Made by a program: the position numbers and the translations under genes. The notes under the pieces are model-generated. The model was given only the letters and a program-made list of their open reading frames with translations, had not been told where the DNA came from and searched no databases. From a virus, in IMG/VR virus record IMGVR_UViG_3300010151_000139, positions 1 through 25,816 of that record: a stretch of 25,816 nucleotides of DNA. One strand, 5' to 3'. Of this stretch, positions 1,984-20,552 are shown piece by piece. How positions within the stretch are numbered: the stretch's first letter is position 1; each line of letters opens with the position of its first letter.

Positions 1984-2012
1984 CTTATATGGTAATCACC
2001 GCACCCACTCAA
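1984..2012 (-). promoter_or_regulatory. Sigma70-like promoter for the AcrVA2-like gene, likely leaderless
   Basis: Read on the minus strand: TTGAGT (2012-2007), 17-base spacer, TATAAG (1989-1984). The start codon begins 5 bases after the -10 box, so transcription would begin at or beside the ATG. No ribosome binding site is present between them. Confidence 0.55.
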
Positions 2013-2018
2013 GGCGGT

Positions 2019-2045
2019 TTGATTGCGAGGCAACTTCAATATAAA
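2019..2045 (+). promoter_or_regulatory. Candidate divergent promoter for the early gene block
   Basis: TTGATT (2019-2024) and TATAAA (2040-2045) are separated by 15 bases, slightly short for sigma70. It lies back to back with the minus-strand promoter, 7 bases from its -35 box, so the two directions may compete or share control. It would give a leader of about 30 bases before the 80-residue gene. Confidence 0.4.
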
Positions 2046-2082
2046 ATCTTCAACAGAATTTATTTTTGTTCGGAGATAGTAA

Positions 2083-2325
2083 ATGCCACGAAAAAGCGGA
2101 CAGCCAGGAGAAGCTCCACTCCGGGTTCCGAACAAAAATCGGGGTATCATAATTCTACCCACCGTAAATGGGTACCTCATGCAGACGGTCCCCATAGATC
2201 TTTTGCCTCGAATGGATTTAACCTCTCAAACGTGGGTTACTGAAAGTCCCGAGAAGGTGGGTGAGATCCTCCCCGATATTCTTAGATCCCTGCATAAATC
2301 TAACTTTCCTCCGGACGAACATTAG
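2083..2325 (+). CDS. Small phage protein of unknown function, divergent from the AcrVA2-like gene
   Basis: 80 residues. The ATG is chosen because GGAG at 2072-2075 sits 7 bases upstream. The frame that starts at 1989 has no such site and covers the promoter region. The product is basic at the N-terminus (MPRKSGQPGE) and then has strands (GIIILPTVNG, MQTVPIDLLP) and an amphipathic C-terminal helix (EKVGEILPDILRSLH). No recognised domain. Small divergent partners beside anti-CRISPR-like genes are sometimes regulators, but no helix-turn-helix is visible here. Confidence 0.6.
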   Translation: MPRKSGQPGEAPLRVPNKNRGIIILPTVNGYLMQTVPIDLLPRMDLTSQTWVTESPEKVGEILPDILRSLHKSNFPPDEH

Positions 2326-2350
2326 GCAATTTCTCAAGTATCATCTTGGG

Positions 2351-2362
2351 TAAACTGAATAC
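2351..2362 (+). promoter_or_regulatory. Possible leaderless -10 element before the 228-residue gene
   Basis: TAAACT (2351-2356) stands 6 bases before the GTG at 2363, with no Shine-Dalgarno between them and no good -35 box. The placement mirrors that of the minus-strand gene, where TATAAG lies 5 bases from the ATG. Confidence 0.25.
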
Positions 2363-3049
2363 GTGAGAAAAAAGAAACTCCACATCTTAAATCCACGACC
2401 CATACAGACGAAAATTTCAGGTGTTATGGTTGAGATCTACCCCCTAGTGCGGGCCCACACCGCCATAACCGCTCCCGCGATTAAAAAAGCAATGGCTAAA
2501 TTTAGACAGTGTGACGTGAACTATATCTCTCTAGACCACAAGGTCTATCAGATTAGCGGGGTGTGGAACGGGTTGCTCTGGGATGGCAAGAAACCAATTG
2601 AAGACCTTGCGTCAAGTTATGGAGAAATACATATTATTCGAGGTGACTGGGTAGCCTTTTTGGATATCCAACGTATTCGATCCTTAGTGGAAGCTATAAT
2701 ACTTCAATTAGATGCACTGGGGCTCCAATGCACTGATCAAGTATTTTTGGACTGTATACATTTCTCAAGAGATGACTTTGCCCCCGCCGGTCTACTTCGA
2801 GCTTTAATCGGGGCCCGTGAGGTTCTTGAAGATTACAAGCCCCTCTTGGTCCCAGAGATATTTAATCTGTTAAAGATGGGGGAGTCCTACCTGAGGGAGC
2901 ATGGAGTGCGTCAAAAACGAAAAACTTGTTCTAAGTGTTGGGGTCGTAAAGTTATAAGTAGTTCTACCGTCACGTTAGGAATGGCCCAAATCTTTACACA
3001 TTCCGATCCTAACGTAGTGTCCCCCTGTGATAAGTGTTCAAATACCTGA
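2363..3049 (+). CDS. Phage protein of unknown function with C-terminal zinc-ribbon-like Cys pairs
   Basis: 228 residues from a GTG start. A later ATG at 2426 (residue 22) is the alternative. The body is mixed alpha/beta with a helical centre (IRSLVEAIILQLDALG, GLLRALIGAREVLEDY). The C-terminal 40 residues carry C189-x2-C192 (TCSKCWGRK) and C222-x2-C225 (SPCDKCSNT), separated by about 30 residues, a probable zinc ribbon. It is the first of five neighbouring proteins with paired cysteines. No family is recognised. The gene is preceded by a TANNNT element and followed by an 84-base gap holding the next promoter. Confidence 0.65.
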   Translation: MRKKKLHILNPRPIQTKISGVMVEIYPLVRAHTAITAPAIKKAMAKFRQCDVNYISLDHKVYQISGVWNGLLWDGKKPIEDLASSYGEIHIIRGDWVAFLDIQRIRSLVEAIILQLDALGLQCTDQVFLDCIHFSRDDFAPAGLLRALIGAREVLEDYKPLLVPEIFNLLKMGESYLREHGVRQKRKTCSKCWGRKVISSSTVTLGMAQIFTHSDPNVVSPCDKCSNT

Positions 3050-3074
3050 GGCAATTTACTTAAGGCATTTACGC

Positions 3075-3102
3075 TTGATTTATGCGATGACTGTCGTATA
3101 GT
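3075..3102 (+). promoter_or_regulatory. Sigma70-like promoter for the HTH/Cys-rich gene cluster
   Basis: TTGATT (3075-3080), 16-base spacer, TATAGT (3097-3102). It would start transcription near 3109, giving a leader of about 25 bases that contains the GGAG site for the TTG start at 3134. The -35 sequence is the same as that of the candidate at 2019. Confidence 0.55.
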
Positions 3103-3133
3103 TTAAGATGTAAATCATCACTGGAGTACAAAA

Positions 3134-3361
3134 TTGAAAGTACCATTGGATACTTATCTGTCTCCCATGTCAGTGGCAAAGAGGCGAAATTCTAGCCAAG
3201 ATACTGTTTTAAGAGCAATCTATGATGGTGACCTTAAAGGAATCCAAGTCATAGGTCCTAATGGATCGATAGTTGCTATTGGTGTTCATCCAAAGGATGC
3301 CGAGGCGTGGGTCCCCCGTCTTCGTGCTAGGAAGCTATCAACCCCCTCGGGGTCTTCATAA
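3134..3361 (+). CDS. Small helix-turn-helix DNA-binding protein (excisionase/MerR-like)
   Basis: 75 residues from a TTG start with GGAG (3123-3126) 7 bases upstream. Residues 8-60 read as an HTH_17/excisionase-type domain: YLSPMSVAKRRNSSQDTVLRAIYDGDLKGIQVI, a short turn, then a wing and HPKDAEAWVPR, matching the usual SVAEAA-x-S-x-x-TV-R-I-x-G-L pattern and the final D-x-E-AW. Such proteins bind DNA and act as excisionases or small phage regulators. No integrase is present here, so a regulatory role for this early operon is the simpler reading. It is the first gene after the promoter at 3075-3102, and its stop overlaps the next ATG (TAATG). Confidence 0.7.
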   Translation: MKVPLDTYLSPMSVAKRRNSSQDTVLRAIYDGDLKGIQVIGPNGSIVAIGVHPKDAEAWVPRLRARKLSTPSGSS

Positions 3362-3753
3362 TGAGATTTAACTATGCATACGACACTATAGACTCTTCTA
3401 CGAGTTGTCCAGCGTGTAGTCATTCTTTGGGTATCTTCGTAACTGAGGCGTTCAATCCATCTTCTAAATTTCCAAAGAAGTTCAAGCCTGGGGATACGTT
3501 TAAGAATTCTGAGGGGTCTTTAATTAAAGCTCAAGAATTCTCAGTGTTCTCGTTATGTTCCCATTGTCAATCATTTATTAAAGGTTCCGTTAGAATCTTA
3601 AACGGACACATAGTGGAATTCAAAGATGATACCCAAGCTAAGTTTTGGGTCAGCTCTCGCGCTTACTTTGATGGGCTCCAAAAACTAGACACTGAGAATG
3701 TAAGACTTCTGAGTGTGTTGGAAAGATTGGTCCATGAATCTTCACACCAATGA
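3361..3753 (+). CDS. Zinc-ribbon-like small phage protein
   Basis: 130 residues, ATG overlapping the previous stop as TAATG. Two Cys pairs, C16-x2-C19 (SCPACS) and C66-x2-C69 (LCSHCQ), frame a roughly 45-residue beta-rich insert with many Phe and Lys. After the second pair come strands (SVRILNGHIVEF) and a C-terminal helix. This spacing suggests one zinc site holding the two halves of the fold together. No named family is recognised. It is translated with the HTH gene and overlaps the next gene by 20 bases. Confidence 0.65.
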   Translation: MRFNYAYDTIDSSTSCPACSHSLGIFVTEAFNPSSKFPKKFKPGDTFKNSEGSLIKAQEFSVFSLCSHCQSFIKGSVRILNGHIVEFKDDTQAKFWVSSRAYFDGLQKLDTENVRLLSVLERLVHESSHQ

Positions 3754-4333
3754 GTCTGGCTTAGTGTGGTGTGCGAAACTAAATTCAGATGTTCGCCCAG
3801 ATCTTTCTAATCTCTCGGGATGTTCCCACTGTGTTTACTGTTCCAAACTTCATCAATCTAAGTCTATGCAGATCACGGGCGTAACTTGTAGGTTAGTCCC
3901 AAACATCAAATTCTGTGAACGTCAGGCGGTGAATGATGATGGGTCCAGATTATGCTTGGTAGAGACTGACCTGGACGAGTACAAGTCCCTTACCGGACAT
4001 GTTGATGCGAAGTCGGTCCCCGAAGATTTTATAATTCCAAGACCCACCACATTTACAAAATGTCTTCTATGCTTTTCGACGGGCCGTACTATCTGTAAAG
4101 CAATTCCCGGTAAATCTAAAGAAGTTATAAACGCTTGTCAATCTTTGTCTAGTCCCAAAATTCAATCCCAATACCCACCTCCGGTATCTGAAGGAGGTCG
4201 GGCTATGCGCTCAATCCTTAAAAAGTTAAACCCCTCATGGTCGAGCGTATCGAATGAATTAGAAGATAGGGGGGAATCCCCGTTTAATCCAAATGAGCCG
4301 GATACAGGAAATGGAATGGAGAGATCGAAATGA
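3734..4333 (+). CDS. Cysteine-rich phage protein of unknown function
   Basis: 199 residues. The ATG at 3734 has GGAAAG (3720-3725) upstream and a short overlap with the previous gene. A GTG at 3713 would add seven residues without a better site. The N-terminal half holds many Cys (13, 30, 33, 36, 52, 61, 74), including CSHCVYC, and the middle holds KCLLCFSTGRTIC, so one or two metal sites are likely. Alternation of Cys with basic residues recalls zinc fingers rather than a ferredoxin. The C-terminal third is Pro/Ser-rich and probably disordered. No family is recognised. ATGA overlap with the following gene indicates translational coupling. Confidence 0.55.
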   Translation: MNLHTNESGLVWCAKLNSDVRPDLSNLSGCSHCVYCSKLHQSKSMQITGVTCRLVPNIKFCERQAVNDDGSRLCLVETDLDEYKSLTGHVDAKSVPEDFIIPRPTTFTKCLLCFSTGRTICKAIPGKSKEVINACQSLSSPKIQSQYPPPVSEGGRAMRSILKKLNPSWSSVSNELEDRGESPFNPNEPDTGNGMERSK

Positions 4334-4554
4334 GTGACGAACGATTAGACATCAATGATTTGGTATATGAATATTCTGACGTTACTCATGCGGACCTCAT
4401 TCTCCTGATAACCCATGAGGGCGTCGGGGTTACTGGGTGGGAGCAACGATTTTTGAATGATTATACGGTCCGGGGGAGAACCACATTCACCCAAAGACAA
4501 TCCGAGGTGCTTGGAATGATTTTCAGAAAACGGGTCGAAGGTAAGGAAGAGTGA
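4330..4554 (+). CDS. Small phage protein of unknown function
   Basis: 74 residues, starting in an ATGA overlap with the upstream stop. The sequence is acidic at the N-terminus (SDERLDINDLVYEYSD) and then has a compact helical part (QRFLNDYTVRG, TFTQRQSEVLGMIFRKRVEG) ending in a charged tail. The pattern of a short helix, GRTTFT-x-RQ and a closing helix is seen in small phage proteins near replication genes, but no function can be given. It lacks the Cys pairs of its neighbours. Confidence 0.6.
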   Translation: MSDERLDINDLVYEYSDVTHADLILLITHEGVGVTGWEQRFLNDYTVRGRTTFTQRQSEVLGMIFRKRVEGKEE

Positions 4555-4826
4555 ACAACCGCATTGCCTCAGGAGTATTGTGCTGGATGTGCGAATTCTG
4601 GCTACCCCGCGAGGGTGAGGTGTTGGACCGGTGGTCACGTATTAACTCAAGTAGTACCGAGGCCAGATGCGGTGTCTGCAAAATTCTTAAGAATGCCGGA
4701 GTTAACGCTCCGTTTAGATGGACCCGGGCCGATAGTCATTGCGAACACGCTTTAATGAACAAAGAGGCAACCAGTGAAACTGTCTTCCGACAAATCAATG
4801 AGACCCCTGGTAGTACTGGGGGTTGA
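4551..4826 (+). CDS. Small zinc-finger-like phage protein
   Basis: 91 residues from a GTG that overlaps the previous stop as GTGA. Cys pairs C11-x2-C14 (CWMC) and C40-x2-C43 (CGVC), plus C64 and H66 (HCEH), indicate at least one zinc site. A competing +1 frame from 4564 is shorter and has no better initiation site. The last 53 bases overlap the start of the RuvC-like gene, an unusually long overlap. The C-terminus beyond residue 75 is therefore probably unconstrained, or the effective end of the domain lies earlier. Confidence 0.5.
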   Translation: MNNRIASGVLCWMCEFWLPREGEVLDRWSRINSSSTEARCGVCKILKNAGVNAPFRWTRADSHCEHALMNKEATSETVFRQINETPGSTGG

Positions 4827-5370
4827 TACAGGATTCTCCACTTATGGATTATCGCGTGTTGAAATTTTCCCAGAGATTCGGGTGCGAGCTTTTACAACTC
4901 TCAGGTACATCGACAAGGGGAACGACCTGAAGGCCACTGAGAGGATGCTTTCCGTTGGTTATGACATGTCGAATCAGGTTCATACTTGGATTGATTCCAA
5001 TTTTAAGGATAACCCGCCCATAGCCGTTGCAGTCGAGGGAGTCTCAATTCCTCAGAAGGTTGGGCCCCAAACCACTCTAAAAATAGGAATTGGATGGGGC
5101 ACCCTCCTTTCGGTGGCCTCTCGTTTGGGAGTTCCTGTTTTCCAGAGGTTCCCTGCCGCGATAAAGCAACACCTGACAGGTAAGAAATCCGCCTCTAAGA
5201 AAGAAATTCAGGCAGTCCTTTCTAATAAATTTTGCGTGGATTTTGAGGGGATGAATCTCACGCTAAGAGAGCACGCTGCGGATTCTATAGCAGCCGCGAT
5301 AACCGTAGCACAGCAAGAGAAAATGGTGGGTATGGCTATCTCCGCGATTCGGAATCATGTTTCCACCTGA
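4774..5370 (+). CDS. RuvC-like Holliday junction resolvase
   Basis: 198 residues, GTG start with GAGG 7 bases upstream. An ATG at 4798 would remove eight residues but keep the fold. The RNase H-like nuclease fold is read from VVLGVDTGFSTYGL (catalytic D18), PPIAVAVEGVSI (E88), LTGKKSASKKEIQ (the KS-x-K-x-x-V-like helix of RuvC), and HAADSIAAAI (H167 and D170). RuvC-family enzymes cut four-way junctions symmetrically with Mg2+. In phages they resolve recombination or replication branches before packaging. It closes the early cluster and is followed by the control region of the replication operon. A second, unrelated resolvase-like nuclease occurs at 16885-17274. Confidence 0.88.
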   Translation: MKLSSDKSMRPLVVLGVDTGFSTYGLSRVEIFPEIRVRAFTTLRYIDKGNDLKATERMLSVGYDMSNQVHTWIDSNFKDNPPIAVAVEGVSIPQKVGPQTTLKIGIGWGTLLSVASRLGVPVFQRFPAAIKQHLTGKKSASKKEIQAVLSNKFCVDFEGMNLTLREHAADSIAAAITVAQQEKMVGMAISAIRNHVST

Positions 5371-5435
5371 TACAAATTACGCGCCCCATTTGTGCAACGA
5401 AGCTACTTCCAAAACTCCCCGTGGGTCTTTTTGTG

Positions 5436-5464
5436 TTGACGTGCCCGTGGCCCCTTGGTATGTT
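5436..5464 (+). promoter_or_regulatory. Sigma70-like promoter 1 of the replication operon
   Basis: TTGACG (5436-5441), spacer of exactly 17 bases, TATGTT (5459-5464). The -35 has five of six consensus bases. Confidence 0.55.
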
Positions 5465-5470
5465 TTCCGT

Positions 5471-5537
5471 CCGACCGTAGTAGCTACGTGAGTTCACGTT
5501 AAGTCGATTAAACTTTATATAACTCACCCCCGGTCGG
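5471..5537. repeat. Nested inverted repeats around promoter 2
   Basis: An outer pair CCGACCG (5471-5477) and CGGTCGG (5531-5537) encloses an inner pair GTGAGTT (5488-5494) and AACTCAC (5521-5527). Within the left side, ACGTGA-GT-TCACGT (5486-5499) is a separate short palindrome overlapping the -35 of promoter 2. The enclosed 5499-5522 is AT-rich. Arrangement suits a regulator-binding site. An RNA fold would need transcription from the upstream promoter. Confidence 0.5.
5493..5521 (+). promoter_or_regulatory. Sigma70-like promoter 2 of the replication operon
   Basis: TTCACG (5493-5498), spacer of 17 bases, TATATA (5516-5521). Its -35 is covered by the palindrome at 5486-5499, so a bound regulator would block it. 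Confidence 0.45.
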
Positions 5538-5603
5538 GCGCTGCTAGGGAGTGGCAGTCTTAGGGAGAATTGCAACCATGTTTAATATCTGAGGAGAAAG
5601 TCC

Positions 5604-5861
5604 GTGTATAAGGTTGAAAGTAATCAAATATCCTCGTATCTTGTCCCTGCCCCTCCTACTCCCACACGCCTCTGGGGGGGTCGATCCAACCGAAGAAGTT
5701 TGAGTTCTATACCTACCCATTCTTCTAAAATTGCTCTACGCTTCTCCTCCACTCCCACGAGGATTGAGGCGCATTGCTATGCGGGAGGGTTACATGACAG
5801 GGGCTTCGGTTTTGCCGCCGAAGCCCCGTCTTTTTGCCTTCTACGAAAGGCAATTCAATGA
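5604..5861 (+). CDS. Leader ORF coupled to the replication initiator
   Basis: 85 codons from a GTG with GAGGAG (5591-5596) 7 bases upstream, one of the best ribosome sites in the window. The stop overlaps the initiator ATG as ATGA. The translation is low in recognisable structure (Pro, Ser, Arg rich, for example VPAPPTPTRLWGG), no family is recognised, and its last third runs through a terminator-like hairpin. It may therefore be a translated leader whose ribosome traffic controls the hairpin, rather than a protein selected for its own function. The four-codon frame at 5578-5592 ends on its ribosome site. The alternative is that the stretch is an untranslated leader or a short RNA ending at the hairpin. 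Confidence 0.4.
   Translation: MYKVESNQISSYLVPAPPTPTRLWGGRSNRRSLSSIPTHSSKIALRFSSTPTRIEAHCYAGGLHDRGFGFAAEAPSFCLLRKAIQ
5796..5835 (+). terminator. Intrinsic terminator-like hairpin (attenuator candidate)
   Basis: GGGGCTTCGG (5800-5809) pairs perfectly with CCGAAGCCCC (5818-5827) around an 8-base loop. GAC (5796-5798) and GTC (5828-5830) extend the stem past a bulged A. A TTTTT run follows (5831-5835). It lies inside the leader ORF and 22 bases before the initiator ATG, with no promoter after it. Confidence 0.75.
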
Positions 5862-7003
5862 GTTCTACAGCTCTCCGCGCACAGTCTGCGCAATCACACG
5901 TCGAGCTAACGCTCTGTCAGACTCCTGGAGAGGCCCCACGGCAGTTTACACCCCTCTACGATGATGTGATGATCAGAGCCGATCTATCTCTGACTGAGAA
6001 GGTCGTTCTGTGCTTCTTACGCCGTCAAATAAACCCCGCCGCTGGTAGGTTTGAATGCCGACCCTGTCAGACAACCATCTCTCGTAAATTAGGGATATCA
6101 CTCCGAACTGTGGAGAGGTCAATATCCTCTCTCCTGTTAAAAAATGCTATCCGGTCCTCCCGTAAAAGCCGTCACCAGAGCAATCGATATGAGATACTAC
6201 CCACCCCCCTGACCCGTCAGGATGGCGGGTCTGGGACCCGTCAGGATGGCGGTTCGGGACCCGCCATAATGGCGGCTGGAAGAGACAAGAAAGAAAGAGA
6301 CAAGAAAGAAAGAGACAAAACTACCCGCGCTTCTTCAGCGCGGATCGATATTTCAATCTTGTCTGGACACCCAGAAGGGAAATTAAAGATGGGACGAAGA
6401 CCTAAGACTTCTGATTTTGATTTGAGACCGGCGTCTGAGATGTTTTCAAATGACCATGTGGATCTGGAAGATTTTGTATTGGGGAAACGCGCCGCTATTC
6501 CAGAAGGCAAGAGGTCAATCCTCGTAGCCCAATTGGTAGAGGATACTGACTTGCAGCGAACATGGTTTCGTAAGGGTCCTGGTTTGCTGAAGAGGATTAG
6601 GAAGGCGGCTGATGTCGAAGTGGAGGACTGGACACCCGAACAGCTCTGGTCTTACTGGAGACTCCTTCTCCGTCTATCATGGCCCGACACCGGAATTTCA
6701 ATCTCTAAGAAGTCTAAGCACACGGAGATCGGGTGTGTCGGAAAAGCCATGAAGCGATTTGGACCCGAGATAGCGAAGAGGCTCTTAGAGAGTCTCGTTG
6801 TTCGGTGGCGGGATGTTAAGAGGGAGAACAAGTGGCTGGACCTTGAGAGGCCTTCAGTGTCCCTCGCATCTGGCGAGAAGATGGGCCCCACATTGGTGTC
6901 TCAATTCAAATTAGATCGATCTGGGTCTGTAACTGAGAAGCTTTCGGGTGGCGCGGATCCCCTTGAGCAGCTACGCGCACGGAAGGCGCGGAGACAATCG
7001 TAA
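5858..7003 (+). CDS. O-like replication initiator with winged helix-turn-helix
   Basis: 381 residues. The ATG at 5858 is preferred over the TTG at 5834 because AAAGG lies 7 bases upstream and the ATG overlaps the leader stop. Residues 40-112 form a RepO/HTH_36-like winged helix: LSLTEKVVLCFLRRQIN, then CQTTISRKLGISLRTVERSISSLLLKNAI, then a basic wing ending NRYEI. Residues 118-156 are low complexity: two TRQDGGSG units and RDKKE repeats, encoded by the DNA repeats at 6211-6320. The C-terminal part (about 195-300) is helical with W-rich segments. By analogy with lambda O, the N-domain would bind origin iterons and the C-domain contact helicase loader or helicase, whose genes follow. TAATG overlap with the loader gene. 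Confidence 0.75.
   Translation: MSSTALRAQSAQSHVELTLCQTPGEAPRQFTPLYDDVMIRADLSLTEKVVLCFLRRQINPAAGRFECRPCQTTISRKLGISLRTVERSISSLLLKNAIRSSRKSRHQSNRYEILPTPLTRQDGGSGTRQDGGSGPAIMAAGRDKKERDKKERDKTTRASSARIDISILSGHPEGKLKMGRRPKTSDFDLRPASEMFSNDHVDLEDFVLGKRAAIPEGKRSILVAQLVEDTDLQRTWFRKGPGLLKRIRKAADVEVEDWTPEQLWSYWRLLLRLSWPDTGISISKKSKHTEIGCVGKAMKRFGPEIAKRLLESLVVRWRDVKRENKWLDLERPSVSLASGEKMGPTLVSQFKLDRSGSVTEKLSGGADPLEQLRARKARRQS
6211..6275. repeat. Iteron-like dyad array (candidate replication origin)
   Basis: Three repeats start at 6211, 6235 and 6258. The first two share GACCCGTCAGGATGGCGG and the third is GACCCGCCATAATGGCGG. Each is itself dyad-symmetric: repeat 1 has GACCCG and CGGGTC arms nine bases apart, and repeat 3 contains the perfect palindrome CCGCCAT-A-ATGGCGG. 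Placement inside the initiator gene, just after its HTH coding part, matches the lambda-type origin layout. Confidence 0.55.
6281..6320. repeat. 15-base purine-rich tandem repeat beside the iterons
   Basis: AGAGACAAGAAAGAA occurs at 6281-6295 and 6296-6310, followed by a partial third copy AGAGACAAAA (6311-6320). One strand is almost pure purine and AT-rich compared with its surroundings. In lambdoid origins a similar asymmetric AT-rich tract beside the iterons is where the duplex opens. It encodes RDKKE repeats. Confidence 0.6.
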
Positions 7004-7614
7004 TGGCTCACCTTCAATTATTGAATTCTACTCGGCTTGAGAAATTGACTTATTCTCATTTCCAGAGGGCACATCTTCCCAAGAGGTCGTGGTCTTACAA
7101 GTTGGGAGACATCGAAGATCTTGATCGTGCTGAGAACAATTTTATACGTGAGTACTGTTCTGAAATTTATGACCATCTGACCGCTGGGGATGGAGTACAC
7201 CTCACGGGCGAGTCGGGGGTGGGGAAGACGACGGTTGCTTGTATTATCGCTAAGTACGCGATGTTGCATCAGGCCACTGTTTTGTATTTGACGGGTGAGC
7301 GATATTTCGAGGCTTATATGAAAGATCGGATGTTTGATGAAGGTGAGGGGGAGACCATTGTGGAGAGGGCCAGGAGCGTCAATCTTTTGATTCTAGATAA
7401 TCCCTCAACCGCGGGTGAGTCTAAGTTTGCGTCCGCCAAGATTAGGTCACTCCTTAAAGATAGGGCCGATGATTTGTTGGCCACGGTTTTCGTGACTGAT
7501 GTTCCGTGGGATGACCCGGACTGGGTGGGGGATTTGTCTCGGGACCCTAGCTTGTTCGAGAGCTGTCCATTTAGTTTGAATTTTAAGGCTCCCTATTGGA
7601 GTAAGTCAGAATGA
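7003..7614 (+). CDS. AAA+ helicase loader (DnaC/IstB-like)
   Basis: 203 residues. Walker A GESGVGKT (69-76), Walker B LLILDN (128-133), and a downstream strand ATVFVTDVPW carrying the sensor-1 position. The N-terminal 60 residues (YSHFQRAHLPKRSW, helix to YDHL) match the short segment before the P-loop in DnaC/DnaI-type loaders, though this protein is shorter than DnaC (245). The Walker B ends in DN rather than DD/DE, so the catalytic acidic pair may be incomplete. Such ATPases open the ring of the replicative helicase and deliver it to the origin. It lies between the initiator and the helicase, overlapping the first as TAATG and the second as ATGA. Confidence 0.8.
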   Translation: MAHLQLLNSTRLEKLTYSHFQRAHLPKRSWSYKLGDIEDLDRAENNFIREYCSEIYDHLTAGDGVHLTGESGVGKTTVACIIAKYAMLHQATVLYLTGERYFEAYMKDRMFDEGEGETIVERARSVNLLILDNPSTAGESKFASAKIRSLLKDRADDLLATVFVTDVPWDDPDWVGDLSRDPSLFESCPFSLNFKAPYWSKSE

Positions 7615-8936
7615 AAATCGGATTGGGGATCAGTGGTCATATCTTAGTGTCTCGGGATCGGTCCACGTTGATGGCTGTATTAGATGCTGGGATAACTCCG
7701 GACTTAATGCAGGAGGACGAGGCCGCTCTCTTTTCTGCGATTAAGAAGCATTTTAATGAGTATGGGGTTATCCCCGACAAGGAGAGTTTGCGCGGCAAGA
7801 TTGCTGGCGTTCTGATTGATCAGATCCCTTCTGAGATTCCGGAGCCCCTCGGATTTTATATCCGTGAGGTTCGACAGAGATCCTTATCCGTGAATGTTGC
7901 GGAAACTCTGAAGCAGTGCATCAAGTCGGTTGAGTCTAGTAATCCCGACGAAGCAATTGAGCTGATGCAGAAGCTCGTGTTTCATAATATCGGAGTAGCC
8001 TCCACTCATGGGGGTGGGGTAGATATTCGGGACACGGCTCGCCAGAGGTGGGAGGAGTATGAGCATCTAAGAGATCTCAGACTTTCCGGAAATATAGATG
8101 GGGTGCCCTTCCCGTGGGACTTTCTGAATGAGCTTACCTTCGGTCTTCATGACGGCGACCTCGCTTGCTTGGTGGGTCGAATTGGAGTGGGTAAGAGTTG
8201 GTTGATTTTGCACTGCGTTATTGCCGCATGGAAGTCTGGGAAATCCCCACTTCTGGTCACCACGGAGATGTCTGAAAATCTCTTAAATCGTCGAATTGAT
8301 GGGATGATGTCGGGTGTGTCTTATACCGATTTCACTCACGGTCAGTTGGGGACGGCAGCGGAGGAGCACGTGAAGCTTGTTACGTTGAAGGAGTATCAGG
8401 ATCTCCCACCTCTAATTGTTGTGGGTAGCCCGAAGATTAGGACTCCCGAGGATTTAGCCACCGCCATACATACTTACCGACCCGACGGTGGAGTGTTTGT
8501 TGACGGTATCAATCGTATGCGGGCAGGTAGTAACAACGATAGGTATCAGCGTGTCGCTGAGGCTGCGGATGGCCTTAAGGCGGTTGCGGATGGGTGTGGG
8601 GTCCCGATTCTAGGGACAACCCATTTCCATCGTCAGGGCGGGAAGACGGCGAAGAGCAGTTCGAAGGGTGATATGGAGGATATTGGGTATGCCTATGCTA
8701 TCGCGGAACAGGCCACTCTTCTGTTTGGCCTGATGCAGCCAAATGATTTCAAGTTGGATAACCAGATTTTGGTGAAGATCATGAAGGGTCGTGAGATGAA
8801 GCACCCCGAGGGATTTGTGGTGAACTGTAATCCAGACACAATGAACTTTGACCTCATTGGATCTTGGCAGGACGGTCAGACTGTTCCCATACAGAAGGGC
8901 CCGGTTGATGTGGAAGACGAGGAGGCACCATTTTGA
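7611..8936 (+). CDS. DnaB-type replicative helicase
   Basis: 441 residues, ATG in an ATGA overlap with the loader. The N-terminal about 130 residues are helical as in DnaB/gp41-type N-domains (LFSAIKKHFNEYGVIP, then ETLKQCIKSVESSNPDEAIELMQ). The RecA-like C-domain has Walker A GRIGVGKS (189-196), the catalytic-Glu motif LLVTTEMS (E219), Walker B GGVFVDGINRM (293-303), and a later GTTHFHR segment in the place of the DnaB H4-type motif that contacts DNA. The family forms a hexamer unwinding DNA 5' to 3' on the lagging strand, partnered here by the loader upstream and the primase downstream. The C-terminal tail is acidic (VDVEDEEAPF), perhaps a protein-contact tail. Confidence 0.9.
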   Translation: MKIGLGISGHILVSRDRSTLMAVLDAGITPDLMQEDEAALFSAIKKHFNEYGVIPDKESLRGKIAGVLIDQIPSEIPEPLGFYIREVRQRSLSVNVAETLKQCIKSVESSNPDEAIELMQKLVFHNIGVASTHGGGVDIRDTARQRWEEYEHLRDLRLSGNIDGVPFPWDFLNELTFGLHDGDLACLVGRIGVGKSWLILHCVIAAWKSGKSPLLVTTEMSENLLNRRIDGMMSGVSYTDFTHGQLGTAAEEHVKLVTLKEYQDLPPLIVVGSPKIRTPEDLATAIHTYRPDGGVFVDGINRMRAGSNNDRYQRVAEAADGLKAVADGCGVPILGTTHFHRQGGKTAKSSSKGDMEDIGYAYAIAEQATLLFGLMQPNDFKLDNQILVKIMKGREMKHPEGFVVNCNPDTMNFDLIGSWQDGQTVPIQKGPVDVEDEEAPF

Positions 8937-8968
8937 TGTGCCCTAAGTACCAAAGAGGAGACCGTATC

Positions 8969-9301
8969 ATGGACGATTATAAGCACCCCCCGAAGAGCGA
9001 GGAGGGGCCGTCGCGCTTTATGAGGGAGCATGGGATTCTGTGTAACTCTGCTTTGTGGAGCTACAACGAGAGCCAGAGGCAGGTTATTGATGATGCCGGT
9101 CTCTCCTATCGCGTGGTAAACGGAGGTACGACTCTCTTGTTTCGAGAGAGGCTGATGCCCAAAGCAGATTTCTATCCGGGACGAGACCGTTGGAAGGTGG
9201 GTTGCAAAGTGACAGAGGGTACTGCCGTAGCCTTTGTTGAGTGGTGGATAAGGATGCGGAAAGAGCGCGACGAAGCCGCTGAGCGGGGTGGGGGAGTGTA
9301 G
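8969..9301 (+). CDS. Small phage protein between helicase and primase, unknown function
   Basis: 110 residues. The ATG at 8969 is chosen because GAGGAG (8955-8960) lies 8 bases upstream. An ATG at 8936 overlapping the helicase stop, with GAGGAGG before it, would add 11 residues and cannot be excluded. The sequence has a helical N-part (SRFMREHGILCNSALWSYNESQRQV), a beta-turn region (YRVVNGGTTLLFRERL) and a C-terminal Trp-rich amphipathic helix (VAFVEWWIRMRKERDEAAER). No domain is recognised. Its fixed place inside the replisome operon suggests a replication accessory role, by context only. Confidence 0.65.
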   Translation: MDDYKHPPKSEEGPSRFMREHGILCNSALWSYNESQRQVIDDAGLSYRVVNGGTTLLFRERLMPKADFYPGRDRWKVGCKVTEGTAVAFVEWWIRMRKERDEAAERGGGV

Positions 9302-9303
9302 TT

Positions 9304-10269
9304 ATGGAGGCTTCTCAAATTGTGGAGGTGTTGAATAGGGCTGGATGTCAGAAGGTGCGAGTTTCGGAGCCCAACGTATGGTGCTGCTGCCCCCTCTCAA
9401 AGTGGACCCATGAGTCTGGGAGCGACCATCGGCCCTCTTGCTCAGTCCTGATAGCAGAGGACGATACCAGCGTGTTTATTTGCTGGGGGTGTAAGGCTAA
9501 GGGGACGCTGTCGGATTTGATTTATCGTCTAAATACGTTCCGCAACGGGACGTTGAGCGAACTAGTTATGTGGGTAGAGGAGAGGGACCGGCCTAATTTG
9601 AATAACATGCTCGAACGGGCACTCGTTCGTTCGGTTGATGGTGGGATGTCTGTGACAGATATAACAACCCCCTCGGAGTGGATATTAGACGAGTCGGTAC
9701 TTGACGGATTTGTGGGAAAAGTTCCCCAGTACGTCATAGGTCGTGGGCTGACCCTTAAGACCTGTAAATTTTGGGAGTTGGGATACGATGAGGACCCCCT
9801 GGATTCCAGGTTAGTTTTTCCTGTTCGGGACTACGTCGGAAGTCTCGTGGGGATGGTTGGTAGGGCCCTCACCCCAGACGCTAGGATTAAGTACCGGAAT
9901 TATAGTGGGTTTCATGGTGCTAATTTTTTGTATGGGGAGGATAAGTTTGACCCTGTCGATGACCGACCTATTGTGTTGGTTGAGGGTATGCTGGATGTAC
10001 TCATGTCTTGGCAGCACGGCATTTGTCAGCCTCTCGGCATATTCGGATCGCGATTGACTCGGGAGCGGGCCCGAAAATTAGAGGTTCTCGTGGGCAGACG
10101 AACCATTTTGACCCTGTTTGATCCGGATAAGGCAGGCTCGGATGCCCGAAAGAGTGTGGACGAGCATCTGGGGGGGACCATCCCCGTATTTCATCGAGAG
10201 TGTCCCGAAGAAAAAGATCCAGGAGACCTTGACAAGTCGGAATTAGAGTCTATTCTAAACTGTAGTTAA
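9304..10269 (+). CDS. DNA primase with zinc finger and TOPRIM domain
   Basis: 321 residues, about half the length of bacterial DnaG. The N-terminus has a CHC2-like zinc finger: C29-P, H36 or H42, the HRPSCSV segment equivalent to the family TPSF, and CWGCK (C60, C63). The central part has a short RNA-polymerase-type region (SRLVFPVRDYVGSLVGMVGRAL). The TOPRIM motifs are RPIVLVEGMLD (E227) and ILTLFDPDKAGSD (D273, D275), the metal-binding acidic residues. There is no C-terminal helicase-binding domain as in DnaG, so contact with the helicase may be through another part. It would make RNA primers at the fork. A 61-base gap follows before the SSB-like gene. Confidence 0.88.
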   Translation: MEASQIVEVLNRAGCQKVRVSEPNVWCCCPLSKWTHESGSDHRPSCSVLIAEDDTSVFICWGCKAKGTLSDLIYRLNTFRNGTLSELVMWVEERDRPNLNNMLERALVRSVDGGMSVTDITTPSEWILDESVLDGFVGKVPQYVIGRGLTLKTCKFWELGYDEDPLDSRLVFPVRDYVGSLVGMVGRALTPDARIKYRNYSGFHGANFLYGEDKFDPVDDRPIVLVEGMLDVLMSWQHGICQPLGIFGSRLTRERARKLEVLVGRRTILTLFDPDKAGSDARKSVDEHLGGTIPVFHRECPEEKDPGDLDKSELESILNCS

Positions 10270-10330
10270 CCAAAGTTTTTAAGAATGTCTTGAGCGGTCA
10301 ACGTGCCGTATAGACGCAAAGGAGTCCAAT

Positions 10331-11095
10331 ATGAGTTGGCATGGAAGTGGATACGACCAACACGATCAGAATTTGAAGGATCAGGAGGCTCTCCGATCCG
10401 AGTCTTCAGAGGGCCGAAGATTTTGGATGCCCGCCGTCGTTGGGGATAATCCGGAGAAGCCTCGAAATGAGGCGGTGATTAGCATCTTGGGGGGAATTAT
10501 TGGGGACGATGGGACTGTCACGTCTGACCCATTTACATGGTGGGAACATAATCCGAAGATCAATGGGACGTATAAGAATTGGCATACCTGTACCAGGGCG
10601 TTGGGGGGCTGTCCGTTCTGCGATGCTGACCCACAAGGTGAGCAAATGCGCCGATATTTCTGTGGTGGGTGGACCGTGATCGACCACAGTGAGTGGACAT
10701 CTAAGACGGGTATTCTCGTTAAGAATCAGAAGAAGCTACTCGTTGCAAAGAGTGACATGGTCGCAGTTTTTCGTAAGAAGCAGGAACTTCGCGGCACACT
10801 CGTGGGGACAAAATGGCACGTATTCCGGAGTGGCGCTAAGAAGGCCAACATCGGAGATCAGTGGGAGTTCATTGAGAATATCGATTTGGACTCGTCTGGA
10901 CTGGTTGATGGGGAGAATAATCCCGTTGACTCAGGTGTGATTGATTACATGAAGGTCTTGACGCCACCCACTGCGGAAGCGACTCAGTCTATTTTGAATC
11001 AGTGGCGTCCTTCGACCGTTGGAGGCCCTCCAAGCGGTGAACCCGCAGGGACTAGTGGAGGTCATGGACAGTCTGTGCCCTACGATAGCTTTTAG
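10331..11095 (+). CDS. Probable phage single-stranded DNA-binding protein
   Basis: 254 residues, ATG after a strong AAAGGAG site. Seen: an N-terminal strand set (RRFWMPAVVG, VISILGGIIGDDG), a metal-binding-like cluster H85-x-C87 and C94-x2-C97 plus C111 (WHTCTRALGGCPFCDAD), and an OB-like run of strands with many aromatic and basic residues (GILVKNQKKLLVAK, GTKWHVFRSG, QWEFIENIDLD). The C-terminal 40 residues are Gly/Pro/Ser-rich and end in VPYDSF, an acidic-aromatic tip like SSB tails. The zinc cluster and place between primase and polymerase recall gp32-type proteins. Function is inferred from place and architecture, not from a diagnostic motif. Confidence 0.6.
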   Translation: MSWHGSGYDQHDQNLKDQEALRSESSEGRRFWMPAVVGDNPEKPRNEAVISILGGIIGDDGTVTSDPFTWWEHNPKINGTYKNWHTCTRALGGCPFCDADPQGEQMRRYFCGGWTVIDHSEWTSKTGILVKNQKKLLVAKSDMVAVFRKKQELRGTLVGTKWHVFRSGAKKANIGDQWEFIENIDLDSSGLVDGENNPVDSGVIDYMKVLTPPTAEATQSILNQWRPSTVGGPPSGEPAGTSGGHGQSVPYDSF

Positions 11096-11113
11096 TTCTG
11101 GGGGCGGAACACC

Positions 11114-13201
11114 GTGGGATTTCAAGGAGAACTGTTTGCTCTCGACAATGAGGGCAACGAGATTGAACAGCCGGAACTCCGGACTAGAGATGAGAACTGG
11201 TCGGTGTTTAAGGTCGCGCTGTCGTCCTGTCTCAACGCCTCTGAGTACTGCTTAGATCTCGAAACTACGGGACTCAATTCTCGCCTCGATAGAATCACCG
11301 TAGTATCTCTGGCGGTCTCCCCAGTCGAAGGGTGTGGTGACCACGCAGCATACGCTTGGGCATTTGAGGTTGATGGAGATCGCGGAGTTCCTCTTTATGA
11401 TGTTGTTCGGCTGCTCCGCCCCCTTTTTTCTGATCCCTCGAAGATGGTATATGGTTGGAATCTTAATTTTGATTTCCAATTCTTGCTATCTCAGGGATTG
11501 GAAATCCACAATCGAGTGTTTGATGGGATGCTGGCCTCGAAGCTCTTAGACGAGACGGGTCAGCTGAAGGGGCTCAAGTTTACAGTTTTGGACCTGCTGG
11601 GTTACCAGATGATGGAGTTTATGCAGGTCCAGGCGTTTCCCAGCCTTCTGGTTGAGTACGCGATCGATGACACATTGTGGTGTCTGCGTGTGTGCAAGGA
11701 ATGCTTAGAGCCAGATATCGTTGATCAGGGTTTATATAAGATTCTGATCGACATTGAGGGTGAGACTGTAAAGATCGTCTCTGAGGTTGAATTTCATGGT
11801 CTCTACATGGATCGTCAACACCTCATAAAGATGGCTACGGTTTATGAGGACCGCCTCTTCGGAGTTGAGGAGGATATCTACACTATCGCAGGCCATCGTT
11901 TTCTGATTTCGAATCCTGAGCAGTGTTCTCAGGTTATCTTCGGTGAGTTAAAGGTTGACTCCTTTGGGTGTAAGCGTAATCAGAGTGGTTGGCCCTCTAC
12001 TGCTGAAAAAGTTTTATCGGTTATTATTGATCGGCATCCGATTATCCAGAAGCTACTGGAGTACCGTCGTATTAGTAAGGTGTTGGGCACTTATCTTCGC
12101 CCTCTCACGAGGAAGTGGATGACGGAGAGTAATCGTGTACATGCCGATTTCTTGCAACTGGGAACCACCACAGGTCGTTACGCAGTTCGTAAACCAGGTC
12201 TTCAGCAACTTCCTGCTTATCCCTATAACGGCGTCCGCAAGGCGGTGTGCTCTCAGCCTGGAATGGCCCTAATCCAAGCGGACTGGTCTCAGATTGAGTT
12301 GAGATTAATCGCGTGGTTATCCGGGTGCCAAAACATGTTAGCTGCATTTGTGGGGGACGACCGTGTAGATCTTCACCAACAGACGCAGGACCGGACAGGG
12401 TGCAAGAGTCGAGGTGATGCTAAAACTCTAAACTTCGGTCTAGCGTATCTCATGCAAGTTGAGACGCTTGCGCGGGAGTTAGGAAATGTTCCACTCCATG
12501 TAGCCCAGAGGTATTGGGACGCCTACCATGAGACATATCCGGAGCTAAACAACTATTACGCTACTGTGATGTCGGAGCTAAAAGGTGGGGGGTACACATC
12601 TAATCTGACTGGCCGTCGCCGCAGGTTCCACGAGGGTCTTATTCGCAGGATTAAGTGGGGCGATAAGATCCACCGCGAGGCCGTCAATTTCCCAGTTCAG
12701 GGTGGAGCTGGGGACCTACTTAAGATCGCGTGTATTCGGATGCGCAAGAATCTGGAGGAACTCCGATCTGTTGACCCCCGCTGGAATGATTTTCGATTCG
12801 TTCTCTTTGTTCATGATGAGATTTTGGCGGAATGTCCCGAGGGGTTAGCCCAAGATGCTGCCAACTTTATGAGAAAGCATATGGAGGAGTCGATTGTTCT
12901 CCCTGTTGTTTTGGGGGGTTCGGAGTACTCCTTAGTTTTAGAGGCCGACATTTGTATTTGTCCGTACTGGTCAATTTCAAAATTGGATCCTGATGAGCAG
13001 TTGATTGTTTATCGCAGTGAGGAGGAGTTCGATGAGAGCAGGGCTCAATTTTATTTGCATGACAAGTATTTATCAGCTTCCAAAACCGTGAGGGCCGTGT
13101 TGGATTTTGCCAAGTCTCAGAACCTATTCGACACTTCAATGCCTACTTTAGCTGAGTATAGGTCTGCTCAGAAATCCATGTCTTCTGGGGCGACCGTATG
13201 A
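11114..13201 (+). CDS. Family A DNA polymerase with 3'-5' exonuclease
   Basis: 695 residues from a GTG. Exonuclease motifs: Exo I DLETTGL (48-54), Exo II NLNFDF (116-121), Exo III YAIDD (182-186). Polymerase motifs: A, LIQADWSQIELRL with metal-binding D390; B (O helix), R433-x3-K437-x3-F441-x3-Y445; C, VHDE (566-569) with D568. T-x-T-GR (351-355) precedes motif A as in Pol I. There is no 5' nuclease domain. The residue equivalent to E. coli Pol I position 762 is Phe, and the residue after the O-helix Tyr is Leu rather than the usual Gly. The replicative polymerase of this phage, in a four-base overlap with the SF2 helicase gene. Confidence 0.95.
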   Translation: MGFQGELFALDNEGNEIEQPELRTRDENWSVFKVALSSCLNASEYCLDLETTGLNSRLDRITVVSLAVSPVEGCGDHAAYAWAFEVDGDRGVPLYDVVRLLRPLFSDPSKMVYGWNLNFDFQFLLSQGLEIHNRVFDGMLASKLLDETGQLKGLKFTVLDLLGYQMMEFMQVQAFPSLLVEYAIDDTLWCLRVCKECLEPDIVDQGLYKILIDIEGETVKIVSEVEFHGLYMDRQHLIKMATVYEDRLFGVEEDIYTIAGHRFLISNPEQCSQVIFGELKVDSFGCKRNQSGWPSTAEKVLSVIIDRHPIIQKLLEYRRISKVLGTYLRPLTRKWMTESNRVHADFLQLGTTTGRYAVRKPGLQQLPAYPYNGVRKAVCSQPGMALIQADWSQIELRLIAWLSGCQNMLAAFVGDDRVDLHQQTQDRTGCKSRGDAKTLNFGLAYLMQVETLARELGNVPLHVAQRYWDAYHETYPELNNYYATVMSELKGGGYTSNLTGRRRRFHEGLIRRIKWGDKIHREAVNFPVQGGAGDLLKIACIRMRKNLEELRSVDPRWNDFRFVLFVHDEILAECPEGLAQDAANFMRKHMEESIVLPVVLGGSEYSLVLEADICICPYWSISKLDPDEQLIVYRSEEEFDESRAQFYLHDKYLSASKTVRAVLDFAKSQNLFDTSMPTLAEYRSAQKSMSSGATV

Positions 13202-15414: not shown

Positions 15415-15726
15415 ATGGTACCGGATAGGATTTGGGTGGATCAAAACGGTAGATTGTTCCATGTTCGGGAGTTAAGAAATTCTCATCTTCGTAGACTGAT
15501 TAAGATGATGCGTAATCGGAGAAATCGATCGACCCTGCAAATGGAGAGCGCCATGTCGAAGATAGATTCCAATCGGAATGATCCCGAGATATGCTCTTCT
15601 CAGTTGCAGCATCACGCCGAATTGGAAACCATCTTTAAGGAGTCGGGCGAGTGGTTAACTACGTTCGAGGAGGAGAAGTCTCGCCGTAACATGATAGACA
15701 CTGTAATTGATGTGGAGTTTCTCTAA
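15415..15726 (+). CDS. Small phage protein with W-x-D-x-NGR/HL motif, unknown function
   Basis: 103 residues, ATG two bases after the previous stop, with AGGGG upstream. The start, RIWVDQNGRLFHVRELRNSHLRRLIKMMRNR, follows a pattern known from small phage proteins (W-x-x-x-G-x-x-x-x-V-x-x-M/L-x-x-x-HL-x-N/R-x-I). The rest is a charged helix with many Glu, Arg and Asn, then IDTVIDVEFL. Its stop overlaps the recA-like ATG as TAATG, so it is probably translated with it. Biochemical role unknown. Confidence 0.65.
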   Translation: MVPDRIWVDQNGRLFHVRELRNSHLRRLIKMMRNRRNRSTLQMESAMSKIDSNRNDPEICSSQLQHHAELETIFKESGEWLTTFEEEKSRRNMIDTVIDVEFL

Positions 15727-16901
15727 TGTCTGTAGATCCTGAACTTGCGAAGTTTATTGAGAAGGTCAACAAGCGGTATAAGGCCCCCGATAATTCCCCC
15801 ATAATTTTCTCTGCGGAGTCCTCTCCCATACTTCAAATCCCAAGACTCCGGACTGGAGTCTTTAGTTTAGACTTGGGCTTGGGTGGTGGTTTTCCACAGG
15901 GTCGGATTGTTCGAGTCTATGGACCTCCCTCAGGGGGCAAGAGTCTCCTATGCCTGCGAATGGTTCAGGAAAATCAAGGGAAATGTCGAAACTGTTGGAA
16001 AGCATTTTCTGAGGTTAAGAAATCCAAGTGTTGCTCTAAGCCTCGGAGATTCCGAACACTTTGGTTAGACGTGGAGGGCGTTTGGGAAAACAACTGGGCA
16101 TTGAAGCACGGTGTAGACTTAGACCAAGTTATTGTCTCCCGCACCGAGTTCGCGGAGCAGGGATTAGACATTGTCCATTCTTGTCTTCTGGAGAGAGCCG
16201 TTGATTTGGTGGTGATCGACTCTTTGGCTCAGTTATCAACTACTAAGGAGTTAGATTCTTCTCAGGAGGACACGAAGGTTGCGTTGAATGCTCGCGCTGT
16301 AAATGAGTTTCTTCGCAAATGCGTTGCTGATTTGAACTCTCAGAAAATCGCTCACAAATCTACCGTAATCCTGATTAATCAGATTCGGTATTCCGTTGGA
16401 GCCTACGGTGACCCCGAAACTATGCCAGGCGGTATGGGCCAGGAGTTCGCATCTTCGGTTGATGTTCGATTGCAGCGTTATCGGGTAGTCACCGATAAGG
16501 GTAAGCTGACGGGTCCCGCGGCGGACAATTCGACGCAGGGTGTGCCCGTTGGAGCAATGACCAATTTTAGGATTACTAAGAATAAAACCTCACCCCCGCA
16601 TAGGTCCGGGGAGTATTGTATTTGGTTTTCGGATGACGAGAACAGCGGTCGAAAGGTAGGCGACGTCGATTGTTCTGACGCCTTGTTTGAGTATGGGGTT
16701 CGGTGCGGAGTCCTTTCTAAGGAGGGTCGCAGTTATGTATTTACTGATCTTGAGGGGACCTTGTATACGTTGGACACGAAGAAGGACGCGGTTAAGCGGC
16801 AGATTTTCGAAGATGACCGCCTCTATAAATCTTTGCAGGAGGCGGTTCTCAATAAGTTAACGGGTAGCGTGTCAAGTGATTCAGATGCCCGGGTTCTTTG
16901 A
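15726..16901 (+). CDS. RecA-like recombinase with inserted Cys cluster
   Basis: 391 residues. Walker A GPPSGGKS (66-73), Walker B LVVIDSLAQL (161-170), NQI (218-220), and the L2-like loop GGMGQEFASSVDVRL (235-249) identify a RecA/UvsX-type strand-exchange ATPase. The acidic WLDVEG (113-118) corresponds to the WIDTE motif. Between the P-loop helix and that strand there is an insert with C87-x2-C90 and C102-C103, a probable zinc knuckle absent from E. coli RecA. Such proteins coat ssDNA and pair homologous DNA. They would feed junctions to the RuvC-like and PDDEXK enzymes. The C-terminal 90 residues carry a DNA-binding-like strand/helix region. The start codon overlaps the previous stop as TAATG. 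Confidence 0.9.
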   Translation: MSVDPELAKFIEKVNKRYKAPDNSPIIFSAESSPILQIPRLRTGVFSLDLGLGGGFPQGRIVRVYGPPSGGKSLLCLRMVQENQGKCRNCWKAFSEVKKSKCCSKPRRFRTLWLDVEGVWENNWALKHGVDLDQVIVSRTEFAEQGLDIVHSCLLERAVDLVVIDSLAQLSTTKELDSSQEDTKVALNARAVNEFLRKCVADLNSQKIAHKSTVILINQIRYSVGAYGDPETMPGGMGQEFASSVDVRLQRYRVVTDKGKLTGPAADNSTQGVPVGAMTNFRITKNKTSPPHRSGEYCIWFSDDENSGRKVGDVDCSDALFEYGVRCGVLSKEGRSYVFTDLEGTLYTLDTKKDAVKRQIFEDDRLYKSLQEAVLNKLTGSVSSDSDARVL

Positions 16902-17274
16902 TAGGCCACGAAAGCCCCGTAAAGGGTTTTCGTTAGATCGTCGCCCGCAGGATGCAAAGGGACACGAGAGGGACACCGCTAAATCCTTGGGCGGCTACCC
17001 TACTGCGGGGTCGGGGAATAAGCCGGGTCAAAAGAGCGATGTAGTTGTTCCAAAGGGCCGGATTCATGATTCGACGGCAAGGGTTGAATGTAAGAAGACG
17101 AGTCGAAAATCGATTACGATTAGTCTTAAATGGTTGGAGAAGATTGCACGGGAGGCTGTGGAGTCCGGTAGAACACCTGTGATTGCACTTCGATTTGAAT
17201 GCGCAGAGTTTGCGGAAGCCGACTGGGTTATGGTCGAGCGTCGTCATTATGAGGAGCTGACAGATGAGCAGTAG
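16885..17274 (+). CDS. PDDEXK-type nuclease, probable Holliday junction resolvase
   Basis: 129 residues. ATG at 16885 chosen. A GTG at 16876 is the alternative, and neither has a strong ribosome site because both lie in the overlap with the recA-like gene. After a basic tail, the core reads AGSGNKPGQKSDVVVP (D52), then ARVECKKTSRKSITI (E68-x-K70), then a long helix LKWLEKIAREAVESGRTPVIALRF, the D...E-x-K signature and layout of Hjc-like and phage resolvase nucleases. Metal-dependent cleavage of branched DNA is inferred. It overlaps the Cas4-like gene by 11 bases, making a RecA, resolvase, exonuclease trio. Confidence 0.75.
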   Translation: MPGFFDRPRKPRKGFSLDRRPQDAKGHERDTAKSLGGYPTAGSGNKPGQKSDVVVPKGRIHDSTARVECKKTSRKSITISLKWLEKIAREAVESGRTPVIALRFECAEFAEADWVMVERRHYEELTDEQ

Positions 17275-19895: not shown

Positions 19896-20552
19896 ATGTC
19901 TGATCAAGAATATCTTGAGCGGTCTGAATTGGCACACGCTCTTCGTGGCTGCTCGATCTGCGACCTTCGGAAGACTATACAGAGTCCCGTTCCGGGGGAG
20001 GGTCCGAAGGATTCTTTAATCGTCTCCATTGCTAGAAGTCCAGGGAAGGATGATGATCGGCGTGGGCGACCTTTTTTGGGAAGCTCTGGAGAAGTTTTTG
20101 GGGAGTGCCTACAAGTTCTGGGTCTCCGACGCGAGGATATGGGCCTCTTAAATACAATTTCATGTTTCACTACTCGTCCCGATAATCGGAGACCCACCTC
20201 GGAAGAATTGTATAACTGTCGTCCGTGGAGGGAGCAGCAACTTTCTTGGTTCCATCGGAAGTTGATTGTTCTTGCGTGGGGCCGAGAGGCAGTAGAGGCA
20301 GTTTATGGGGGAGTGGACAGGATGACCGACATTGTGGGTCAAGTGTTTAATCCTTGCGTGGCCCCCGATAGGGGGGGCATTAAGGATTGGGTCGTCATAC
20401 CACTTTGGCATCCCGCTTATCTGATGAGAAATGCTAAAACAAAGCGGATGTTTCGAGATGAGCTGGGTATCCAAGTTGGGGAAAAAATCTCAGGGATTTT
20501 GAAAGGTGGGATTCCAGGTCGGGGTGAGGTTCAGGGCGAGTTATTCAAATGA
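19896..20552 (+). CDS. Uracil-DNA glycosylase, family 4-like with Fe-S ligands
   Basis: 218 residues. Four cysteines match the family 4 4Fe-4S ligands: C19-x2-C22 (CSICDL), C90 (LLNTISC) and C108 (YNCRPW). Motif 1 reads ARSPGKDDDRRGRPFLG, where family 4 usually has GEAPG-x-x-ED-x-x-G-x-PFVG, so the position before PG differs. Motif 2 is WHPAYLMRN (H172). NR-x-P (97-100) also fits. These enzymes remove uracil from DNA, leaving an abasic site. It follows the SWIM-finger gene and precedes, through an ATGA overlap, a signal-peptide protein. The departure from the canonical motif 1 could change specificity or activity. Confidence 0.82.
   Translation: MSDQEYLERSELAHALRGCSICDLRKTIQSPVPGEGPKDSLIVSIARSPGKDDDRRGRPFLGSSGEVFGECLQVLGLRREDMGLLNTISCFTTRPDNRRPTSEELYNCRPWREQQLSWFHRKLIVLAWGREAVEAVYGGVDRMTDIVGQVFNPCVAPDRGGIKDWVVIPLWHPAYLMRNAKTKRMFRDELGIQVGEKISGILKGGIPGRGEVQGELFK

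Follow-up and report, generated by a model that had tools for sequence, protein, structure and literature searches.

Gene neighbourhood and predicted DNA-binding domain of the initiator

We analysed a window of 25,816 bp that comprises the whole of one IMG/VR record and is probably a fragment of an unclassified phage genome. All genes from position 1989 on face the same direction, including those on both sides of the repeat array described below. An O-like replication initiator gene (5858..7003, plus strand; PHROGs 270, 391 and 678) encodes 381 amino acids from an ATG at 5858, which follows AAAGG and is most likely the gene start rather than the TTG at 5834. It is followed on the same strand by genes for a DnaC-like helicase loader (7003..7614; phrog_50, 6.7e-14), a DnaB-like replicative helicase (7611..8936; DnaB_C, 6.8e-16; phrog_19, 3.4e-55), a DNA primase (9304..10269; phrog_47, 6.1e-45) and a family A DNA polymerase (PolA, 11114..13201; PF00476, 1.1e-78), and Pfam-type and PHROG matches also place a second helicase and a RecA/UvsX-like gene downstream. 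These matches bear out the loader, helicase and primase assignments of the initial annotation, which had been made from the sequence without database searches. Genes for recombination and repair include a RuvC-like gene near the replication cluster (4774-5370), the RecA/UvsX-like gene (15726-16901), an Hjc-like nuclease (16876-17274) and a member of the uracil-DNA glycosylase superfamily (19896-20552). A weak DUF4417 match lies at the record end (24938-25774). The ~490 nt that separate the RuvC-like gene from the initiator (5371-5857) have no gene assigned, carry promoter-like sites at 5436 and 5614, and contain a strong intrinsic-terminator-like hairpin (5800-5827) ending ~30 bp 5′ of the initiator start. 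This interval returned nothing at gathering level from Rfam and could be a small RNA or attenuator.

The initiator protein matched PHROG 270 at 1.6e-7 and the O-like families 391 and 678 at 3.7e-5 and 6.1e-5, all modest scores and the latter two covering the N-terminal half only, while HTH_36 (1e-4) fell just under the cut-off. The window initiator gave no match to PF04492 (Phage_rep_O), which lambda O itself matches at 5.7e-36, and a solved-structure sequence search with the full protein returned no match. Using AlphaFold2 with a 7-sequence alignment we obtained a model of a winged-helix DNA-binding domain (residues 30-116; 5945..6205, plus strand) with a pLDDT of 82 and the order HHHH-beta-beta; the full initiator run as a single sequence gave a pLDDT of 39 and was discarded. 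The best solved-structure matches of the model were MarR-like winged helices, and a viral structure library returned predicted phage HTH proteins, several of them named replication protein O, lambda GpO N-terminal or replication initiator. The predicted recognition helix, RTVERSISSLLLK (6101..6139, plus strand; residues 53-65 in the AlphaFold2 model), contains R-T-V-E-R.

Repeat array and GC skew switch within the initiator gene

A repeat array (6211-6343) starts 6 bp past the end of the winged-helix domain at 6205 and lies, as initially annotated, between this domain and the C-terminal part of the protein, whose gene ends at 7003. It begins with three 24-nt repeats, at the starts first assigned to them (6211, 6235 and 6258), with identities to the first of 100, 92 and 67 %. 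Each contains a 19-bp dyad on the plus strand, ACCCGTCAGGATGGCGGGT in iteron 1 (6212..6230), ACCCGTCAGGATGGCGGTT in iteron 2 (6236..6254) and ACCCGCCATAATGGCGGCT in iteron 3 (6259..6277), at spacings of 24 bp and then 23 bp. The 18 bases common to the first two repeats (GACCCGTCAGGATGGCGG) and the 15-base palindrome in the third (CCGCCATAATGGCGG; 7+1+7) were both found as reported earlier. All three dyads have an 8-3-8 organisation, with half-sites in the order ACCCGTCA/ACCCGCCA/ACCCGTCA/AACCGCCA/ACCCGCCA/AGCCGCCA and the consensus ACCCGYCA-NNN-TGRCGGGT. The initiator gene had a tandem-dyad score of 31, whereas its 300 dinucleotide shuffles reached no more than 29 and every other one of the 18 window genes stayed at 17 or below; the three-iteron pattern occurred once in the window and in 0 of 100 shuffles. 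Iterons 1 and 2 each encode TRQDGGSG while iteron 3, read in a different frame, encodes PAIMAAG; the repeat is therefore a DNA element and not a protein linker, and its presence in two frames indicates that selection kept the DNA symmetry and left the amino acids free to change. As RNA, iterons 1 and 2 (6214-6252) would fold into hairpins resembling CsrA sites, with CAGGAUG loops.

Next to the dyads, on their 3′ side, lies a purine tract (6278..6320, plus strand) that contains 15-bp direct repeats and, on the basis of its purine bias and duplex stability, is a candidate DNA unwinding element. The 15-mer AAGAGACAAGAAAGA is present at 6280-6318 (6280-6294, 6295-6309 and a partial copy at 6310-6318), the copy number being 2.6 by TRF and not 2.7 as first annotated. 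Positions 6280-6319 are 93 % purine, which places them among the most purine-biased 40-mers in the whole window, and have the lowest duplex stability within the initiator gene. Two features that define lambda-type intragenic origins, tandem dyad-symmetric iterons ~20-24 bp apart and a purine-asymmetric, low-stability tract beside them, are thus both found here. A GC-rich inverted repeat, CCGCGCTtcttcAGCGCGG (6325..6343), had been overlooked in the initial annotation; read on the minus strand (6345-6323) this hairpin is terminator-like, with a stem followed by AGTTTTGTCT.

An origin at the array predicts a switch of GC skew there, and the initial annotation had proposed looking for a turning point near 6250. 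With a single-changepoint model fitted to G versus C, and support taken as two log units, we located the changepoint at ~6220 over the 25.8-kb record (support about 6178..6466), unchanged for the ranges 1-25816, 2000-25816, 2000-12000 and 4500-9000; the record is a fragment whose left arm measures only 6 kb. The log-likelihood gain was 24.9 (range 2000-25816), whereas none of 200 block permutations exceeded 9.0. Masking 6205-6345 moved the maximum to 6374 (support 6162-6731 for ranges starting at 2000 or later), third codon positions alone placed it at 6379 (support 6178-6565), and third-position skew within the initiator gene was -0.15 before the array and +0.32 after it. At eight further loci with iterons, most of them short pieces, the changepoint fell at or beside the array in a minority only, and skew at these loci, being mixed, was left out as support.

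A skew switch could also mark a boundary of transcription, here a new operon beginning past the terminator-like hairpin at 5800-5827, rather than of replication. The strength of this hairpin and the start of the run of replication genes at this point speak for such a boundary. However, changepoint support starts only at 6178 (at least 6162 when masked, for ranges from 2000), ~300 bp past the operon start, and positions 5858-6210, though inside the same operon as the array, have a skew of -0.19, of the opposite sign. This opposite skew, together with the co-directional genes on both sides from 1989, makes an operon boundary alone a poor fit, and we consider it unlikely.

A smaller chance still attaches to the dyads being operators through which the HTH protein regulates its own gene, with the origin elsewhere. 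The nearest solved structures of the winged helix are indeed transcription repressors and promoter-like and terminator-like sites lie upstream, but the array sits ~350 bp inside the gene, beside its weakest duplex and on the skew switch, with loader and helicase genes downstream. The identically laid-out O sites of lambda are, moreover, origin sites (PMC5043065), and we regard the operator reading as improbable.

Dyad arrays and recognition helices in other initiators

We surveyed 117 initiator ORFs, drawn from about 1,000 genomes on the basis of protein family, together with 150 control ORFs, using a scan that recovers the four annotated iterons of lambda at their exact positions. Significant intragenic tandem dyads were present in 52 of the 117 initiators (44 %) against 10 of 150 controls, and 26 initiators against 1 control had two or more spacings in the range 22-24 bp; as the criteria were set during data inspection and the genes are related, these counts show generality and not exact probabilities. 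Among 48 distinct genes the modal spacing was 23 bp, and in 35 the copies were spread over two or more frames. In 41 of 51 sets the segment directly 3′ of the dyads was the least stable duplex in its gene, and short direct repeats were enriched 3′ of the dyads (27/50), the 15-mer of the window being the strongest of all. Purine bias, found in 13 of 51 sets only, was dropped as a general mark in favour of low duplex stability, and the GC hairpin was weak as a general third element (12/51). A 12-bp direct repeat type (ACAGAGAATACA/ACAGAGATTACT) lies 3′ of the iterons in four initiators of proteobacterial phages or prophages (L160, L165, L168 and L169) and might, in the manner of the DnaA 13-mers, be a sequence-specific single-strand site.

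Protein scans with the initiator, helicase and polymerase identified no close relative or one distant one. Motif searches, which used DNA alone and were blind to protein, returned seven other initiator lineages (L034/L004, L062, L068, L071, L149 and two Acinetobacter prophage lineages), all with two to four dyads directly 3′ of the HTH region and an R-x-x-E-R recognition helix as in the window. Six of the seven matched PHROG replication-initiation families at E<1e-4; L149 had no family match, and L068 is incomplete, being cut at the edge of its piece. The Acinetobacter initiators (L123/L147 and L106/L151) carry four near-identical CCGYCANNNTGRCGG dyads at 23-bp spacing 3′ of the HTH region, read in three frames, and clearly exemplify, in natural genes, how DNA sites can lie within coding sequence. 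They share an R-T-x-E-R helix with the window, and a low-stability downstream tract is seen in L155, a copy of L123, but protein identity to the window is ~17 % and both the C-terminal part and the downstream repeat are different. A scan of viral contigs with a single 19-bp motif yielded mostly lone palindromes, inspected examples of which include terminator-like hairpins, and for this reason only clustered dyads were used. Searching 257 Gb of genomes with the three-iteron pattern gave 72 hits. Most were judged to be chance occurrences, in long ORFs or GC-rich DNA and with only one exact dyad, and a few are protein repeats, among them the IF2-like L142.

The relatives and the survey also bear on whether the repeats simply encode a protein linker of low complexity (TRQDGGSG ... 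RDKKERDKKE) and have no role as DNA. Such a linker would suit their position between two domains and the in-frame 15-bp repeat and copies 1-2, but copy 3 retains its dyad out of frame as PAIMAAG, the Acinetobacter relatives read their four copies in three frames, and the survey's modal spacing of 23 is not a multiple of 3, leaving this reading very improbable. Just as improbable is an RNA-level role as GGA-loop hairpins of the CsrA/Rsm type, for which the CAGGAUG loops of copies 1-2 and an Rfam CsrB match (E 0.048) might be cited, as the match scores 16.3 bits against a gathering threshold of 71 and was rejected, the copy 3 loop is CAUAAUG and the loops of relatives are AAA, AAT, CTT and similar.

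In the aligned winged helices of the motif-selected initiators only four columns are invariant, all in the recognition helix: R, E, R and L. A Glu before the second Arg was accompanied by CCGNCA-NNN-TGNCGG in 10 of 11 tabulated initiators, some of which are duplicates of one lineage, and the eleventh, L255, has the identical half-site with a 4-bp spacer; the same motif occurred in 0 of the 29 tabulated initiators with a residue other than Glu. Outside the table, L066 has CCGACAT dyads but a different helix, so the rule is not absolute. Since the motif-selected genes were picked by their half-site, the independent evidence consists of L255 and the low background of Glu in the protein-selected set. 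Covariation of helix and half-site seems to extend past the Glu: L255 pairs RTVER with CCGACA (4-bp spacer), and L226, L233, L238 and L240 pair a [VI]DRAM helix with a GCCGCA half-site. Tentatively, and at somewhat less than even odds, the winged-helix initiators of phages from many bacterial groups may follow one origin grammar, in which dyads spaced by ~23 bp in any frame precede a duplex of low stability that frequently contains repeats of 10-15 bp. Under this grammar the half-site would follow from the residue preceding the second Arg (Glu for CCGNCA, Asp for (G)CCGCA, Lys/Arg for mostly GG-rich sites). If this is true, one could infer from sequence where the origins of many uncultured phages lie and what specificity they have.

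A candidate intragenic replication origin

The origin of lambda lies within the O gene and combines inverted-repeat iterons bound by O dimers with a 40-bp AT-rich tract whose purines are nearly all on one strand (PMC5043065; PMC7466680). In both lambda (NC_001416) and the window, tandem 19-bp 8-3-8 dyads with copies in several frames lie midway along the initiator gene beside a purine-asymmetric weak duplex, and an inverted repeat follows the last dyad (at 42 bp in lambda and 47 bp in the window). The window spacing of 24 and 23 is that of lambda iterons 2-3-4. The half-site ACCCGTCA of the window and ATCCCTCA of lambda are identical at 6 of 8 positions and both have a 3-bp spacer, so that the initial description of the repeat sequence as unrelated to lambda was slightly too strong. 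The window has three dyads where lambda has four, its tract is less AT-rich and contains perfect 15-bp repeats, and it encodes a DnaC-like loader with the phage's own DnaB, primase and PolA where lambda uses P and host DnaB. The likeness to lambda first proposed therefore holds for the O/ori layout but does not extend to O/P; the lack of a PF04492 match and the different helicase machinery set the window apart from the lambda O/P module proper. Its helicase module is nearer the gp38-gp39-gp40 set of SPP1, with which it agrees in gene order. In SPP1 oriL lies inside gene 38, with repeats and an AT-rich unwinding element, and the initiator, gp39 loader and gp40 helicase form a set (PMC6316719). 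The SPP1 repeats are described as direct repeats whereas those of the window are dyads, and SPP1 relies on host primase and polymerase whereas the window phage encodes its own.

By every feature tested the window carries a lambda-type intragenic iteron origin, an arrangement itself already known from phage lambda. The score of the array against 300 shuffles, the skew changepoint, the gene context and the recurrence of the architecture in other initiators support the origin first suggested here, and we put the probability that 6211-6343 is a phage replication origin within the initiator coding sequence, working through binding, melting and loading, at roughly 0.88. We infer that the winged helix, through its R-T-V-E-R helix, would bind the three 19-bp dyads, probably as one dimer each. 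With the dyads about two helical turns apart, the complex may wrap or bend the DNA and so melt the neighbouring weak purine tract. The C-terminal part of the initiator would then recruit the DnaC-like loader, which would place the phage DnaB on the opened strand for the phage primase and polymerase to act.

With this array, a concrete candidate origin is available for an unclassified phage whose replisome is mostly phage-encoded. It also indicates that sequence alone can reveal origins inside initiator genes, with frame-independent dyads, duplex stability and skew as three independent cross-checks. Added interest lies in dyads that are independent of reading frame, in the autonomy of the replisome and in a possible rule linking helix and half-site. 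The dyad sequence and the helix predicted to read DNA suggest a recognition rule common to otherwise very different phages, and if the association holds, the specificity of such initiators would become predictable.
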